DNA of 64,000 bases from assembly GCF_900155425.1 (NCBI RefSeq), contig NZ_LT700189.1, positions 737,787-801,786 on the forward strand, given 5' to 3'. Each line of letters starts with the position of its first letter. Within the stretch, counting starts at the first letter, position 1. Below the pieces are notes generated by a model. That model was not told the origin of the DNA and ran no database searches. It saw only the letters and a program-made list of their open reading frames with translations. Both the position numbers and the translations under genes were made by a program. Positions 32,677 to 38,806 of this stretch are shown here, piece by piece. This stretch comes from Parabacteroides massiliensis. GTDB lineage: Bacteria; Bacteroidota; Bacteroidia; Bacteroidales; Tannerellaceae.

Positions 32677-33966
32677 TTATGCGCCGAAATTGTCGAAATG
32701 CAACATTTCAAGCGGCACGCCCAGATTGTCCAGCATATTTTCCACTGCTTTTGACATCGGGCCCGGACCACACATGTAGTATTCGATATCTTCCGGAGCT
32801 TCGTGATCCTTCAGGTACGTATCGTAGATTACCTGATGAACGAAACCTGCCGTGTACTTCACTCCTGCCGCATCTGCTGCCGGATCCGGACGGTCGAGCG
32901 CCAGATGGAATGTGAAGTTCGGGAATTCTTTTTCGATTTCCAGGAAATCGTTCAGATAGAATACTTCGTTCAGAGCACGTGCGCCGTAGAAGTATGACAT
33001 CTTGCGATCCGTCGTCTTCAGAGTCTTCGTCATGTGCATGATCTGAGCACGAAGCGGAGCCATACCGGCACCACCGCCGATCCACATCATCTCTCTCTTC
33101 GAGTTGAAGATCGGATGGAAATCACCGTAAGGACCGCTCATCGTCACCTTATCGCCCGGTTTCAGGGTAAAGATATAAGAAGAAGCGATACCCGGCATCA
33201 CATCCTGGAAGCCCACTTCGGGTTTCGGTTTGAACGGCGGGGTAGCGATACGTACCGTCAACATGATACGGTCGCCTTCAGCAGGATAGTTAGCCATAGA
33301 ATATGCACGGATGGTCGGCGTGTCGTTCTTGCATTTCAGCGTGAACAGGCCGAACTTTTCCCATGCCGGCAAATATTCATCGCCGATCAACGATTTGTCG
33401 ATATCCTTGTTGTAATCCATTGCGTATGCCGGAATTTTGATCTGTGCATAAGAACCCGGCACGAAGTCCATGTGTTCGCCCTTAGGCAACGCCACGATAA
33501 ACTCTTTGATAAAAGTAGCCACGTTCTTGTTGGAGATCACTTCGCATTCCCATTCCTTTACGCCGAAAACTTCGTCCGGAACCTGAACGACCATATCTTC
33601 CTTCACTTTGCACTGACATGCCAGACGCCAGTGTTCCTTAATCTGTTTACGAGAGAAAAAGCCTTTCTCTGTCGGCAGGATTTCTCCGCCGCCTTCCAAC
33701 ACCTGTGCACGGCACTGGCCACATTTACCACCACCGCCACAAGCCGAAGACAAGAAGATACCACCACTCTGCAAGCCTGCCAGCAAAGTACTTCCTATCG
33801 GAGTCTCAATATCTTTTTCTCCATTTACCTTCAGGTCTACATTTCCTGACGGTACCAATTTTGCTTTGGCCACCAACAACGCGCCTACCAGGATCAGCGT
33901 AATCACCAAGAAGATTACGGCACCTGCTGCGATCGTAAGACTGCCAGTCGTCATTAATAAAGTCAT
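32677..33966 (-). CDS. nqrF: Na+-translocating NADH:quinone reductase, subunit F
   Basis: A 429-residue subunit that takes electrons from NADH. One N-terminal membrane helix (AAGAVIFLVITLILVGALLV) is followed by a 2Fe-2S ferredoxin domain with CGGGGKCGQC and a later LACQC. Then comes an FAD/NADH reductase domain (RAYSMANYP for FAD, MMWIGGGAGMAPLRAQI and YYMCGPGPMSKAVENML for NADH). It is the last gene of the nqr operon, 27 bp after nqrE. Confidence 0.97.
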   Translation of the reverse strand: MTLLMTTGSLTIAAGAVIFLVITLILVGALLVAKAKLVPSGNVDLKVNGEKDIETPIGSTLLAGLQSGGIFLSSACGGGGKCGQCRAQVLEGGGEILPTEKGFFSRKQIKEHWRLACQCKVKEDMVVQVPDEVFGVKEWECEVISNKNVATFIKEFIVALPKGEHMDFVPGSYAQIKIPAYAMDYNKDIDKSLIGDEYLPAWEKFGLFTLKCKNDTPTIRAYSMANYPAEGDRIMLTVRIATPPFKPKPEVGFQDVMPGIASSYIFTLKPGDKVTMSGPYGDFHPIFNSKREMMWIGGGAGMAPLRAQIMHMTKTLKTTDRKMSYFYGARALNEVFYLNDFLEIEKEFPNFTFHLALDRPDPAADAAGVKYTAGFVHQVIYDTYLKDHEAPEDIEYYMCGPGPMSKAVENMLDNLGVPLEMLHFDNFGA

Positions 33967-33993: not shown

Positions 33994-34611
33994 TTATATC
34001 TTAAGACCTGAGAAGCACATGAATGCCATACCCATCAAACCTGTGATGATAAAGGTAATACCAAGACCTTTCAACGGTTTGGGGATATCCGAGTATGCCA
34101 GTTTTTCACGGATGGCGGCCATACCGACGATAGCCAGCATCCAACCGATACCAGAACCTAAGCCATAAACAGTAGCAACACCTACGTTAGAAAATGCCTT
34201 TTGTTGCATAAACAGAGAACCACCCAGGATAGCGCAGTTTACAGCGATCAGCGGCAAAAAGATACCCAGAGAAGCATACAGGGCCGGAGCAAACTTTTCC
34301 ACTACCATTTCCACCAGCTGCGTAAACGAAGCGATGATGGCGATAAAGATAATGAAAGCAAGGAAGCTCAGGTTCACACCAGCAAATTCAGCACCCAGCC
34401 ATTGCAGAGCGCCTTCCTTCAATACATAATTTTCAAGCATATAGTTGATCGGCAACGTACATGTCAGAATGAACGTCACAGCCATACCTAATCCCAAAGC
34501 AGTCTTCACGTTCTTGGAAACAGCCAGGAAAGAACACATACCCAGATAGTATGCGAAAATCATGTTGTCTACAAAGATCGAGCGGACAAATGTGCTTAAT
34601 AATTCTTCCAT
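33994..34611 (-). CDS. nqrE: Na+-translocating NADH:quinone reductase, subunit E
   Basis: A 205-residue membrane subunit with six helices, homologous to RnfA and to NqrD. Family landmarks are VDNMIFAYYLGMCSFLAVSK at the N-terminus and the Cys-containing LIAVNCAILGGSLFM. NqrD and NqrE together hold an intramembrane iron site with cysteines from both. It lies 25 bp after nqrD. Confidence 0.97.
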   Translation of the reverse strand: MEELLSTFVRSIFVDNMIFAYYLGMCSFLAVSKNVKTALGLGMAVTFILTCTLPINYMLENYVLKEGALQWLGAEFAGVNLSFLAFIIFIAIIASFTQLVEMVVEKFAPALYASLGIFLPLIAVNCAILGGSLFMQQKAFSNVGVATVYGLGSGIGWMLAIVGMAAIREKLAYSDIPKPLKGLGITFIITGLMGMAFMCFSGLKI

Positions 34612-34636: not shown

Positions 34637-35266
34637 TTAATTTTCCTGAAGTTCCTTGTTACGAGAACGATGAACCCAAATAATCACGGCGATCACGATC
34701 AACGCCATCGGAGGCAGGATCATCAAACCGTTGTTCACATAACCGAAGTCATAGAATGCCTGCGGAATAACCTGGAATCCCAGCAACGTACCGGAGCCTA
34801 ACAGCTCGCGGAAGAAACCGACGATCACCAGGATCAATGCATAACCCAGACCGTTGCCGATACCGTCGAGGAACGATTCCCACGGGCCGTTACCCAACGC
34901 AAAAGCTTCCAGGCGTCCCATCAGGATACAGTTGGTAATGATCAGACCCACAAACACGGAAAGCTGTTTGTTTACGTCATAGGCAAACGCTTTCAGCACT
35001 TCACTCACAATAGTCACCAACGCAGCAACCACTACCAGCTGCACGATAATACGGATACGGTTAGGAATCGTATTACGAAGTAATGAAATAATCACGTTGG
35101 CAAAAGCCACAACAGCTGTTACTGAAAGCCCCATTACGATAGCCGGCTCCAGTTTTGATGTTACAGCCAGCGCAGAGCAGATACCCAACATCTGGACGAT
35201 GACCGGGTTGTTTACGCTAAGCGGGCCTAACAGAACTTCTTTATTCTTTTCAGATAATAATCCCAT
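34637..35266 (-). CDS. nqrD: Na+-translocating NADH:quinone reductase, subunit D
   Basis: A 209-residue six-helix subunit, paralogue of NqrE and homologue of RnfE. The conserved Cys residues are in VQMLGICSALAVTSKL and LIITNCILMGRLEAFA, which with NqrE hold the membrane iron cofactor. It ends with a charged tail (WVHRSRNKELQEN). It lies 7 bp after nqrC. Confidence 0.97.
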   Translation of the reverse strand: MGLLSEKNKEVLLGPLSVNNPVIVQMLGICSALAVTSKLEPAIVMGLSVTAVVAFANVIISLLRNTIPNRIRIIVQLVVVAALVTIVSEVLKAFAYDVNKQLSVFVGLIITNCILMGRLEAFALGNGPWESFLDGIGNGLGYALILVIVGFFRELLGSGTLLGFQVIPQAFYDFGYVNNGLMILPPMALIVIAVIIWVHRSRNKELQEN

Positions 35267-35273
35267 CTTCTAC

Positions 35274-36092
35274 TTAATTTTGTGAGGTTAAAAACTTAAC
35301 ATAACCATTCAAACTATTAAATAACATCGCCTGTACTCCCTGGCTTGTAATCGTACCGCCGGAAATACCGTCTACATAATCCTGACCGGCAACGCTCTTG
35401 CCAGGCTTAACGACTGCGATAGACTTGAATGTACCGTCCATGAACAGTTTCTTACCCTTGAATTCATTGCTGAATGCAGGTTTTGCTATTTCAGCTCCCA
35501 ATCCCGGAGTTTCACCCTGGTGGCTGAAATCGGTACCATAAACCGTGTTCTTATCGCTGTCTACAGAGAGATATCCCCACAGCGGTCCCCACAAACCAGC
35601 ACCATGCAAAGCCATGATATATTTGAGCTGTCCGTCCACGTTTGCAACAAAAACCGGATACTGGTGTTCGGATGCCGCTTTCACAACATCGGTTGCAAAC
35701 GCATCACCTTCTACCTTTTCCCCGTTTTCATTTACCAGAAATGCTTCTTTAATCAATTCGTTATATTTGGCTTCGGCCTCATTGGCAGGAACCGACACAT
35801 TGATCGAACGCAAAATCTGTTGCCGTTTGTCGTTCTCTTCATTCTTCTGCTGGAAGGTTCTCAGCGATTGCGACGTGAATGCCAAAACAACAGCTACCAA
35901 TACGACCATAACAGAAGCATAAACAACAGTATACGCGTTACTGTCTCTATCCAATCCCTTTTTCTTGCCGGCAGCCGCCTCGTTTTTCACCTCTTCGAAA
36001 TCGGAAGCGGGAGCTGCACATACAGGACAAACATCCGGAGCTTTATTTCCTTCGTGGATATATCCACATACATTACATTTATATTTAGCCAT
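35274..36092 (-). CDS. nqrC: NqrC with an N-terminal rubredoxin-like domain
   Basis: A 272-residue fusion. Residues 1-35 form a rubredoxin-type iron site: Cys6-x2-Cys9 (KCNVCGY) and Cys22-x2-Cys25 (CPVCAAP), as in the small domain of rubrerythrin. A Lys-rich linker leads to the single NqrC membrane helix (about 53-73). The periplasmic NqrC domain follows, with the covalent FMN site DGISGGTIT (Thr247). Usual NqrC proteins start at the membrane helix. Cytoplasmic placement of the rubredoxin part follows from the known topology. The frame is open throughout, with 13 bp to nqrB, so this is not a reading error. Confidence 0.95.
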   Translation of the reverse strand: MAKYKCNVCGYIHEGNKAPDVCPVCAAPASDFEEVKNEAAAGKKKGLDRDSNAYTVVYASVMVVLVAVVLAFTSQSLRTFQQKNEENDKRQQILRSINVSVPANEAEAKYNELIKEAFLVNENGEKVEGDAFATDVVKAASEHQYPVFVANVDGQLKYIMALHGAGLWGPLWGYLSVDSDKNTVYGTDFSHQGETPGLGAEIAKPAFSNEFKGKKLFMDGTFKSIAVVKPGKSVAGQDYVDGISGGTITSQGVQAMLFNSLNGYVKFLTSQN

Positions 36093-36105: not shown

Positions 36106-37308
36106 TTATTTGATTACACGTTTCAATCTGCGGTTGATGTTAGCTTCCACTACATAGTAGTCGATCAGCGGAGCGAATACATTCATCAACAGGATAGCGA
36201 GCATCATACCTTCAGGATAACCCGGATTCAATGCACGAATGATGATAGCCATAGCTCCTACCAGGAAACCATAGATATACTTGCCTGTCTCCGTACGGGC
36301 AGAAGTGACAGGGTCGGTAGCCATAAACACAGCACCGAATGCGAAACCACCCAGGAACAGCTGATCCAACGGAGATACGCACATGGCCACTGTCGTTCCG
36401 ATCATATTGAAGATAAGCGACATGACTGCGCCACCCACAAATACGGAAACCATTGTCTTCCAGCTTGCGATCTTTGTGAACAGAAGGATAACCGCACCGA
36501 TCAGGATCGCCAATACGGACGTTTCACCGATCGAACCCGGAATCAGACCTAAGAACATGTCCCATGTGGAGATCGGATGCCCGAGAACATCGACAGCCTG
36601 GAACGAACCGATCATATCCTTGCCTGCGATAGCAACCTGCCCCAGCGGAGTCGCACCGGAGAAACCGTCTACCACCTGGCCACCACCGATACCGAACGTA
36701 TCAGCCGTACGGACAAACACCTGGTCGCCAGACATGGCTGCCGGATATGCGAAGAACAGGAAGGCACGCGTAACCAACGCTACGTTAAATACGTTATAAC
36801 CTGTACCGCCAAATACTTCCTTGGCAAAAACAACGGCGAATGCAGTAGCTACGGCGATCATCCACAGCGGAGTGTCGACAGGGACGATCATCGGGATCAG
36901 GATACCCGAAACCAGGAAACCTTCCTGGATTTCTTCCTTCTTTACCTGGGCAACAGCAAATTCGATACCCAAACCTACCACATACGAAACAATGATTTTA
37001 GGCAATACAGCCAGAAAACCAAAAATAAAAGTCATGAGAAATCCCGGATCAGCCCCTACTGCGAGGTTATGCTGATAACCGACATTGTACATACCAAAAA
37101 GCAAAGCGGGCAACAAAGCAATGATGACCACGGTCATCGTACGCTTCGAGTCAATATAGTCATGAATGTGTACGCCTGATTTGGAAGTTGTGTTCGGAAC
37201 AAACAGGAATGTTTCGAAACCTTCAAAAACAGAACGGAACATCGCCAGCTTTCCGCCTTCCTCGAAGTTAGGCTTAATCTTGTCGAGGTAATTCCTTAAC
37301 GCTTTCAA
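36106..37308 (-). CDS. nqrB: Na+-translocating NADH:quinone reductase, subunit B
   Basis: A 400-residue membrane subunit with about ten helices that binds FMN covalently and forms the sodium channel. The flavin attachment motif is DGFSGATPLG, with Thr220. The opening, MKALRNYLDKIKPNFEEGG, is the normal NqrB N-terminus, and it is read from a TTG at 37308, so the start is non-ATG. It lies 22 bp after nqrA. Confidence 0.97.
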   Translation of the reverse strand: MKALRNYLDKIKPNFEEGGKLAMFRSVFEGFETFLFVPNTTSKSGVHIHDYIDSKRTMTVVIIALLPALLFGMYNVGYQHNLAVGADPGFLMTFIFGFLAVLPKIIVSYVVGLGIEFAVAQVKKEEIQEGFLVSGILIPMIVPVDTPLWMIAVATAFAVVFAKEVFGGTGYNVFNVALVTRAFLFFAYPAAMSGDQVFVRTADTFGIGGGQVVDGFSGATPLGQVAIAGKDMIGSFQAVDVLGHPISTWDMFLGLIPGSIGETSVLAILIGAVILLFTKIASWKTMVSVFVGGAVMSLIFNMIGTTVAMCVSPLDQLFLGGFAFGAVFMATDPVTSARTETGKYIYGFLVGAMAIIIRALNPGYPEGMMLAILLMNVFAPLIDYYVVEANINRRLKRVIK

Positions 37309-37330: not shown

Positions 37331-38680
37331 TTAATTCATTTCCTTGTATAATAGATCCAAACCTTGACGAACGATCTTCTGAATTTCGAGTTTGGACGTA
37401 TCGACGAATTCGCAAAGGGCAAAATCCTCGGGCGCTACTTCATAAATACCCAGGTTTTCCATCTTATCGATATCGAATGCGATAATAGCCTTCAACAGAT
37501 ATTCCGGCATGATGTCCATCGGGAACACTTTATCGTATTCGTTGGACATGATCATGGCACGTTTACCTCCCTTGATACGGGCGTCTATTACATATTCCTT
37601 GTTCTTGCCCATCAACCAGGCAGGGAATGAATGGCTCACACTGAATTTTCCGAAGCCGGGGGTTGCCCAACCTAAGAAGTCGTGCGTCTCGTCTCCTTCC
37701 GGGATAACCGTTATCTGATTGTCATAGGCTCCCAGGTAATCGTCTTTCATGACTTTCGTACCGCTCAACACGTTGCCGCTGATGATACGGATGTCTTCGT
37801 TGCCGTTCATGATCTTTCCGTCAACCAGGCTACTGATCGTACAACCGGCGATTGTCTTGATGTATCCTCTCTCGGTCGTTTCGGAACCGGTTATCACAAC
37901 CAGACGGCCGAAATCGGCAACGCCCTTATTGAACAAACGGCCGATTATGATCACGTCGGCAGGATTCACCGTCCAAACCACTTCTCCCTTGTTGATGGGC
38001 TTGATGTGATTAATCTGTACTCCCACATTGGCTGCCGGATGCGGACCTTCCACTTCTACCGTTTCAACGCCTTTCACACTAACGGAAGAACCCTTGCGGA
38101 TGCCGACATATACCTTGCCGTCGGTCAGTTTGGCAAGAGCATCCAACCCGGCCTGAAAATCAGCTTCCTGTCCTTTCACGATGAAATCGAAGTTCGGAGC
38201 TAACGGTGCGGAATAGAATGCAGAAACAAAAATGTCACGCGGTTCGTCAGCCGGCGAAGCGACGATGTCATACGGACGTTGTTTGATAAACGGCCACATA
38301 CCGGCTTGCAGTATTGCCTCCTTTACCTCTTCTCTCTTCAGGGAAGCTACATTTTTCTTACCGAAATCTTCGTACTCGACTTGCGCTTCCGGCTTAACGA
38401 CCACGCTAAGCACTTTACGCTTCTCTCCTCGATTTACGGCAGTTACTTCGCCACTGACGGGCGAAACAAACTTGATCTCCGGGCGGTTCTTATCGATCAT
38501 CAATACAGAACCGGCTTTGACTTTTTCTCCTACTTTGGCAACAACTTTGGGTACAATACCGTTATAATGATCGGGAACGATAGCATAACTATCGCTTTTC
38601 CCTCCGTTTAACAGTACGTCCGAAGCTTTACCCTTCAGATTAATGTCTAAACCCTTTTTAATCTTAATCACATTTGCCAT
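37331..38680 (-). CDS. nqrA: Na+-translocating NADH:quinone reductase, subunit A
   Basis: A 449-residue cytoplasmic subunit, first gene of nqrABCDEF. The start is ATG 38680 (ANVIKIKKGLDINLKG); an in-frame extension upstream lacks homology. KVGEKVKAGSVLMIDKNRPEIKFVSPVSGEV is the barrel-sandwich (biotinyl-like) N-domain typical of NqrA and RnfC. GGKRAMIMSNEYDKVFPMDIMPEYLLKAI lies near the C-terminus. A TACTTTTG -7 box is on the minus strand (38723-38716). The divergent type IX plug-like gene starts 126 bp away. Confidence 0.96.
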   Translation of the reverse strand: MANVIKIKKGLDINLKGKASDVLLNGGKSDSYAIVPDHYNGIVPKVVAKVGEKVKAGSVLMIDKNRPEIKFVSPVSGEVTAVNRGEKRKVLSVVVKPEAQVEYEDFGKKNVASLKREEVKEAILQAGMWPFIKQRPYDIVASPADEPRDIFVSAFYSAPLAPNFDFIVKGQEADFQAGLDALAKLTDGKVYVGIRKGSSVSVKGVETVEVEGPHPAANVGVQINHIKPINKGEVVWTVNPADVIIIGRLFNKGVADFGRLVVITGSETTERGYIKTIAGCTISSLVDGKIMNGNEDIRIISGNVLSGTKVMKDDYLGAYDNQITVIPEGDETHDFLGWATPGFGKFSVSHSFPAWLMGKNKEYVIDARIKGGKRAMIMSNEYDKVFPMDIMPEYLLKAIIAFDIDKMENLGIYEVAPEDFALCEFVDTSKLEIQKIVRQGLDLLYKEMN

Positions 38681-38806
38681 GATACAACTAAAATTGTTTA
38701 TATGTAATTTTCCCGCAAAAGTAAGCAATTTTTTATGCTTTAAAGCAGAGAAAGGGAAATAATTAAAGAAATAATTCCATAATTTTGCATCAAGAAAGAT
38801 AGAAAT

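Follow-up and report, generated by a model that had tools for sequence, protein, structure and literature searches.

A rubrerythrin-type rubredoxin domain fused to NqrC: a conserved but removable addition to the Na+-pumping NADH:quinone oxidoreductase of some Bacteroidales

Why should a subunit of a Na+-pumping NADH:quinone oxidoreductase (Na+-NQR) carry a rubredoxin? The question is raised by the genome of Parabacteroides massiliensis, in which a stretch of 64,000 nucleotides (hereafter the window; contig NZ_LT700189.1, positions 737,787 to 801,786) encodes an NqrC protein with an additional N-terminal domain. The nqrC gene is a single unbroken open reading frame (ORF) of 272 amino acids on the minus strand (35274..36092), with an ATG start and a translation that begins with MAKYKCNVCGYIHEGNKAPDVCPVC. 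The whole protein scores 204.7 bits against the NCBIfam model of NqrC (TIGR01938; cut-off 144), and its neighbors NqrA, NqrB, NqrD, NqrE and NqrF each score above a curated NCBIfam cut-off. By ORFs, Pfam and NCBIfam, the complete operon nqrABCDEF consists of six adjacent genes on the same, minus strand: nqrA (37331..38728, probable ATG start near 38680), nqrB (36106..37308, with an apparent TTG start and an end 13 nt before nqrC), nqrC itself, nqrD (34637..35266), nqrE (33994..34611) and nqrF (32677..33966), the last of which encodes [2Fe-2S], FAD and NADH domains and is the proposed source of electrons for the rubredoxin. The listed nqrA ORF opens 16 codons upstream of the ATG near 38680 (MANVIKIKKG). 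Model match and operon context both identify the protein as a predicted subunit of the Na+-NQR.

The N-terminal part of this NqrC matches RUBY_RBDX (PF21349, "Rubrerythrin, rubredoxin-like domain") at residues 4-33 with 55 bits (E 5e-15; gathering cut-off 26.5 bits) and over the full length of the model (30 of 30 positions). The domain, delimited at residues 3-35 (35988..36086, minus strand) from PF21349, AlphaFold2 and Foldseek, has the short-spaced CxxC-12-CxxC pattern, with 12 residues between Cys9 and Cys22; the codons of Cys6, Cys9, Cys22 and Cys25 span 36018..36077 (minus strand). The ligand set for an Fe(Cys)4 site is in place, and the domain may bind iron. An AlphaFold2 model, built from the alignment of 51 sequences denoted A2, has a mean pLDDT of 91.5, with residues 1-30 at 94-97, a drop to 57 at residues 41-50, and one helix (residues 52-96) that then enters the periplasmic domain. 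The modeled N-terminus superposes with an rmsd of 0.9 on rubrerythrin 1b71 (35 columns, Foldseek E 0.05) and of 0.5 on 4tpu (33 columns, E 0.06), where the E values are no lower because the matched stretch is short; the model thus predicts a rubredoxin fold at the N-terminus of NqrC. No rubrerythrin or ferritin-like Pfam match, and no diiron four-helix domain, was found in the fused protein.

Behind the domain, a linker at residues 36-51 (35940..35987, minus strand), with a Lys-rich end ahead of the helix and a pLDDT of 57 over residues 41-50, varies in sequence and length (11-23 residues from Phe32 to Asn52 in 51 fused proteins), and each of these 51 proteins has 2-5 Lys or Arg within the 12 residues preceding Asn52. 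It leads to the membrane part of the helix (residues 52-80; 35853..35939, minus strand), which is delimited from the AlphaFold2 helix and similarity to Vibrio cholerae NqrC, its end at residue 80 being an estimate. Because NqrC is known to have one helix and a periplasmic FMN domain, according to the available portion of PMC10643135, the rubredoxin would be placed in the cytoplasm, and the Lys and Arg residues before Asn52 agree with this location.

The remainder of the protein is ordinary NqrC. The periplasmic FMN-binding domain (FMN_bind, PF04205; residues 166-261, 35310..35597, minus strand; E 1.7e-16) includes Thr247 (35352..35354, minus strand), the predicted site of covalent FMN attachment, which aligns with Thr225 of V. 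cholerae NqrC, described as the covalent FMN site (PMC10739449, in part), and with the residue that is Tyr in 9u5g (T225Y according to the title of the structure). A second FMN_bind gene, possibly rnfG, is found elsewhere in the same genome (G000:C3:333369-333635, L001). Foldseek matches the rest of the model to V. cholerae NqrC and to 3lwx, the crystal structure of the soluble part of Parabacteroides distasonis NqrC. With these two proteins the fused NqrC shares the membrane helix, the FMN_bind fold, the FMN-binding threonine and the nqrABCDEF operon. However, residue 11 of V. cholerae NqrC already aligns with residue 55 of the fused protein, which leaves no room for a rubredoxin domain, and 3lwx, which covers residues 75-272 only, does not extend to the fused domain. 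The original prediction, made from this sequence, of a rubrerythrin-type rubredoxin joined in one frame to an otherwise complete NqrC with membrane helix and FMN site is therefore upheld on both counts, by PF21349 and TIGR01938 in one uninterrupted ORF and by PF04205 and Thr247.

The fusion is widespread in the window's genus and patchy around it. It was detected in 30 of the 38 genomes of the genus, the other eight comprising six with an NqrC that lacks the domain and two without an NqrC match, and in 33 of 123 genomes of the family. Among 80 named loci, 27 are fused (23 from Parabacteroides, two from Tannerella MAGs and two from Dysgonomonadaceae MAGs); the loci of P. goldsteinii, P. faecis, T. 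forsythia and Massilibacteroides are without the domain. A strain of P. distasonis (L037) carries the fusion. A spread of 393 Bacteroidales genomes yielded eight fused genomes, and two further families of this order have the fusion, f42 in 18 of 91 genomes and f19 in 10 of 20. Across Bacteroidota, only two of 395 genomes are fused, both in the window's genus, and none of these 395 has the fusion beyond Bacteroidales. Comparison of NqrC from Parabacteroides and other Bacteroidales, the check suggested with the original prediction, thus recovers the fusion not only in the genus but also in part of Tannerella and Dysgonomonadaceae and in f42 and f19. The same prediction had named absence from all close strains as evidence against a real fusion, and here the outcome is mixed: most congeners have the domain, whereas it is cleanly absent from P. 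goldsteinii and P. faecis, among others. Since close relatives without the domain retain a complete nqr operon, their pump presumably works without it. One genome (G1003) encodes both fused and non-fused NqrC on contigs C76 and C84 (L217 and L236), which points either to two operons or to a mixed assembly. Four Bacteroidales ORFs without stops past a rubredoxin (L282-L285, from G291, G383, G293 and G289) encode another membrane protein, not NqrC, and were not counted as fused; this protein of ~200 aa has several hydrophobic stretches and an N-terminal rubredoxin-like Cys4 module (CRPCGY/F...CPACG).

Where present, the domain is well conserved. All 51 fused proteins have the four cysteines, Gly10, Tyr11, Gly15, Pro23 and Phe32, and 50 of the 51 have Pro19. 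Mean identity between families is 0.72 for the rubredoxin, compared with 0.38 for the linker, 0.48 for the membrane part and 0.47 for the periplasmic part (0.58 for its FMN core). The pN/pS of the rubredoxin, 0.17 in 27 Tannerellaceae proteins and 0.22 in 18 proteins of f42, is in both groups the lowest of the regions compared, with pS near saturation. Judged by these values, the domain is under purifying selection, which together with its conservation argues that the module is used where it is present, even though it can be dropped. Two features set it apart from its relatives. The stretch after the second CxxC is acidic in NqrC (mean net charge -2.2, 42 rows) but basic in reverse rubrerythrin (+1.4, 36 rows), a contrast that marks a different predicted docking face on the same fold. 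Furthermore, the residues beside the cysteines are aliphatic (position 8 is Val, Ile or Leu in 48 of 51 proteins, position 27 Ala in 46 of 51), where the rubrerythrin of Desulfovibrio vulgaris has Asn and His, substitutions that have been cited for its high potential (PMC6033852, in part); the NqrC rubredoxin could accordingly possess a lower redox potential than the D. vulgaris protein.

Where did the domain come from, and how often? Trees built from NqrA+B+D+E+F require a minimum of 14 changes of fusion state with 106 rows and of 15 with 127 rows, and these changes often fall within a genus. The 106-row tree was derived by removing 25 rows from, and adding 40 to, a set of 91 that comprised 55 of the 80 named loci, 35 of 40 further regions and L003; left out of that set were 25 named loci, all non-fused, and the regions L149, L173, L174, L176 and L177. 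Non-fused NqrC mostly begins with MN..SN immediately before the helix, and several non-fused proteins retain a linker-like stub (MEKEKKSKAGLNTNSN in T. forsythia; MAENETKKGLNKNSN and MSQEKKKLNTDSN in f42) of the kind that removal of the rubredoxin would leave. In P. goldsteinii, P. faecis and L059, ATGAATAGAGATAGTAAT lies within about 20-25 bases of the end of nqrB, as read from the sequences themselves, because the automatic alignment of the nqrB-nqrC junction misplaces part of this stretch.

Other rubredoxin domains in these genomes are mostly N-terminal in reverse rubrerythrin (about 183 aa), as in the copy of the window's own genome (G000:C4:140746-141294, 183 aa). When 42 NqrC rubredoxins were set against 46 rubredoxin domains of other proteins (36 from reverse rubrerythrins), in 40 of the 42 cases some NqrC rubredoxin from a different family was closer than every one of the 46, the two exceptions (L147 and L231) being ties at 0.59. 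(The "mini" group of nine rows in this comparison includes L139, which is actually the C-terminal rubredoxin of a rubrerythrin.) Constraining the 42 NqrC rubredoxins to one group raises the log likelihood by 23.9 units over that of the free tree (p-AU 0.78). Because of these nearest-neighbor relationships and the better likelihood of the constrained tree, a single origin is favored over repeated independent captures of a rubredoxin from rubrerythrin. The latter are the less likely history, although the free tree, built on 38 columns and joining long branches, shows four changes of the NqrC label, at least two of them forced by starred branches, and a single NqrC clade appears in 0% of 200 bootstrap trees on the same 38 columns. 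A single origin of the domain, near the rubredoxin found at the N-terminus of reverse rubrerythrin, is thus probable, followed by repeated clean losses; whether or not lateral transfer contributed, this is the most economical history, although an alignment of 38 columns cannot prove it.

This affinity directs attention to reverse rubrerythrin as a partner. In a sample of 162 genomes, reverse rubrerythrin is encoded in 56 of 58 fused but only 41 of 104 non-fused genomes and, among genomes at least 95% complete, in 37 of 37 compared with 27 of 61. The fused genome G489 was left out of this sample, and G1003 was counted as fused, its non-fused copy L236 being excluded. The plain Fisher test gives p 1.8e-14, a value that ignores relatedness and comes from genomes picked with their fusion status already known. 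With relatedness controlled through 13 independent pairs, a mean of 3.6 pairs differ in the same direction, 0 in the opposite direction and 9.4 not at all, which is not significant (median p 0.125). The association is thus suggestive, not established. Of the link to peroxide detoxification contained in the original prediction, the kinship of the domain with reverse rubrerythrin rubredoxins and the raw co-occurrence stand, whereas statistical significance independent of relatedness does not.

The individual genomes add detail. The two fused genomes in which reverse rubrerythrin was not detected are 82% (G955) and 94% (G065) complete, and G955 has a small separate rubredoxin gene. Both fused Dysgonomonadaceae encode reverse rubrerythrin; of their non-fused relatives in the tree, the closest, G314, has it, whereas G400 and L111 lack it. 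Genomes that lost the domain recently (G041, G045, G038, G050 and G051) retain the enzyme and, because it is present in 41 of the 104 non-fused genomes, including these and G314, reverse rubrerythrin does not need the fusion. In the window's own genome it is encoded on another contig (C4), away from nqr. Eight loci of f42 (L261-L268, from G163, G944, G913, G930, G926, G962, G980 and G919), chosen for retrieval because of a double match, contain rubredoxin-like ORFs of 37-59 aa from Met that adjoin reverse rubrerythrin on the same strand and perhaps encode a dedicated electron carrier for it.

Cytochrome bd, included for comparison, shows no overall association with the fusion (19 of 37 fused and 23 of 35 non-fused genomes, Fisher p 0.24) and was therefore set aside as an explanation; its subunit I is found in 2 of 19 fused and 6 of 18 non-fused genomes of f42 and f19 combined, whereas in the window's genus it occurs in 16 of the 17 fused genomes. 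Other proteins with rubredoxin domains are near-universal (36 of 36 fused genomes tested, 33 of 35 non-fused). The RUBY_RBDX model matches in 70 of 72 genomes, the other two being G077 and G079 (g15); G077 shares its coordinates with locus L085 of T. forsythia, in which NqrC has a linker-like stub.

What, then, might the domain do? In V. cholerae, electrons pass from NADH to the FAD and [2Fe-2S] of NqrF, the [2Fe-2S] cluster of NqrD-E, the FMN of NqrC, then NqrB and quinone (PMC10643135, PMC10739449, both in part), and NqrF has a flexibly tethered ferredoxin-like domain that reaches NqrD-E from the cytoplasmic side and docks there (PMC10643135, in part). Supplied with a foreign donor, namely the rubredoxin domain cut from Escherichia coli flavorubredoxin together with its reductase, the reverse rubrerythrins of Clostridioides difficile use NADH to reduce both O2 and H2O2; which donor serves them naturally is, by the account of the same study, unknown (PMC7482061, in part). 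From this pathway and these results, a side branch, NADH to NqrF to the NqrC rubredoxin to reverse rubrerythrin, can be proposed. The linker of 11-23 residues would tether the short-spaced rubredoxin to the NqrC helix at its cytoplasmic end, where the rubredoxin would share the space of the NqrF ferredoxin domain. Once NADH has reduced NqrF, its ferredoxin-like domain, swinging at the cytoplasmic face, would reduce the rubredoxin instead of, or besides, the NqrD/E cluster; the rubredoxin would hand the electrons to soluble reverse rubrerythrin, which would reduce H2O2 and O2. We infer this route and its direction, as we do iron binding and the cytoplasmic location, and to the rubredoxin as a tethered electron take-off we assign a probability of about 0.4. 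The broader proposition is held still more tentatively, as one that is rather more apt to fail than to hold: that the Bacteroidales Na+-NQR is branched, pumping Na+ on the way to menaquinone and also acting as a membrane NADH:rubredoxin reductase for reverse rubrerythrin, through a module added once and lost cleanly many times.

Known proteins resemble parts of this arrangement. The reverse rubrerythrin of the same genome likewise begins with a short-spaced rubredoxin, which is one of the closest relatives of the domain in NqrC, but there, as in the family described in PMC7482061 (in part), the rubredoxin is followed by a diiron bundle rather than NqrC, and the stretch after its second CxxC is basic rather than acidic. 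The class F flavodiiron protein of C. difficile (FDP_F) unites a short-spaced rubredoxin, which relays electrons from NADH, with NADH-oxidizing and O2-reducing parts in one chain (PMC6033852, in part); unlike the fused NqrC, it is soluble and self-contained and includes no ion pump. The natural AlkB-rubredoxin fusion of Fontimonas thermophila also attaches a rubredoxin to a membrane redox enzyme (PMC10113152, in part), but AlkB is an unrelated membrane protein, a hydroxylase.

Three other functions for the rubredoxin deserve consideration. It could be a redox or metal switch that carries no catalytic electrons but senses O2, peroxide or iron and, by being attached to the mobile helix of NqrC, slows or assists the swing of this subunit between NqrB and NqrD-E. 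The NqrC helix and domain do move during the cycle (PMC10643135, in part), the linker joins the moving helix directly in the AlphaFold2 model, and the optional nature of the domain, without which the operon is intact, fits a regulator. However, the linker, with between-family identity of 0.38, variable length and low predicted confidence, would make a poor lever, and a switch gives no expectation of co-occurrence with reverse rubrerythrin; we consider it unlikely. Improbable, too, is a redox-inert structural or docking element, containing Zn or Fe, that steadies the complex or keeps a soluble partner at the membrane. CxxC...CxxC modules are able to bind Zn, and a domain that is conserved yet dispensable would suit such a role, but the match to all 30 positions of the rubrerythrin rubredoxin model and the invariance of Cys6, Cys9, Gly10, Tyr11, Gly15, Cys22, Pro23, Cys25 and Phe32 in all 51 proteins argue against it. 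Electrons might also enter, either from another reductase through the rubredoxin into the Na+-NQR or by way of a rubredoxin that speeds transfer from NqrF to NqrD/E. The location of the rubredoxin, next to the point where the NqrD/E cluster is accessible from the cytoplasm (PMC10643135, in part), and the possibly lower potential conferred by aliphatic residues near the cysteines (PMC6033852, in part, for the D. vulgaris contrast) are compatible with entry. Yet even a potential like the -110 mV of FDP_F (PMC6033852, in part) is already high for feeding the pump from donors at the level of NADH, and the nearest relatives of the domain belong to reverse rubrerythrin, which makes entry distinctly improbable.

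An artefact of annotation or assembly, with the true protein beginning at the membrane helix, deserves almost no credence: codon 47 is TTG, a possible start at the position of the ATG of non-fused relatives, and several fused relatives (e.g., L033 and L038) have ATG there, but other fused proteins have Ile, Phe or Val at position 47, so that an internal start is not conserved, and the recurrence of the fusion across many genomes, the purifying selection and the four cysteines, each kept in 51 of 51 fused proteins, rule out a frameshift or a wrong start. Support from a Shine-Dalgarno sequence for the upstream start was dropped, the AGGAG lying just one base ahead of the ATG.

NqrC and rubredoxin are each known, and the statement that no description of their fusion exists agrees with the open-access full-text literature, in which the combination is not described: no paper was found that combines "rubredoxin domain" with "Na+-NQR", or NqrC with "rubredoxin-like", or that joins Na+-NQR, Bacteroides and rubredoxin. 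The single open-access paper with both NqrC and rubredoxin mentions them separately in its available portion, and the word rubredoxin has 0 occurrences in the main text of PMC8238504, PMC12174285, PMC4014512 and PMC10739449.

The tethered take-off would have several consequences. Na+-NQR is described with one linear electron path (in the available portions of PMC10643135 and PMC10739449); if the proposal is true, the enzyme can carry a side exit. A rubredoxin tethered to an NADH-oxidizing pump is a concrete candidate for the donor of Bacteroidales reverse rubrerythrin, and natural pairs that differ in the presence of the domain occur inside a single genus. The rubredoxin of NqrC is thus a conserved but removable addition that may tap electrons of the pump for an enzyme that removes O2 and peroxide, in which case a main respiratory pump of these bacteria would become a hub of defense against O2 and H2O2.
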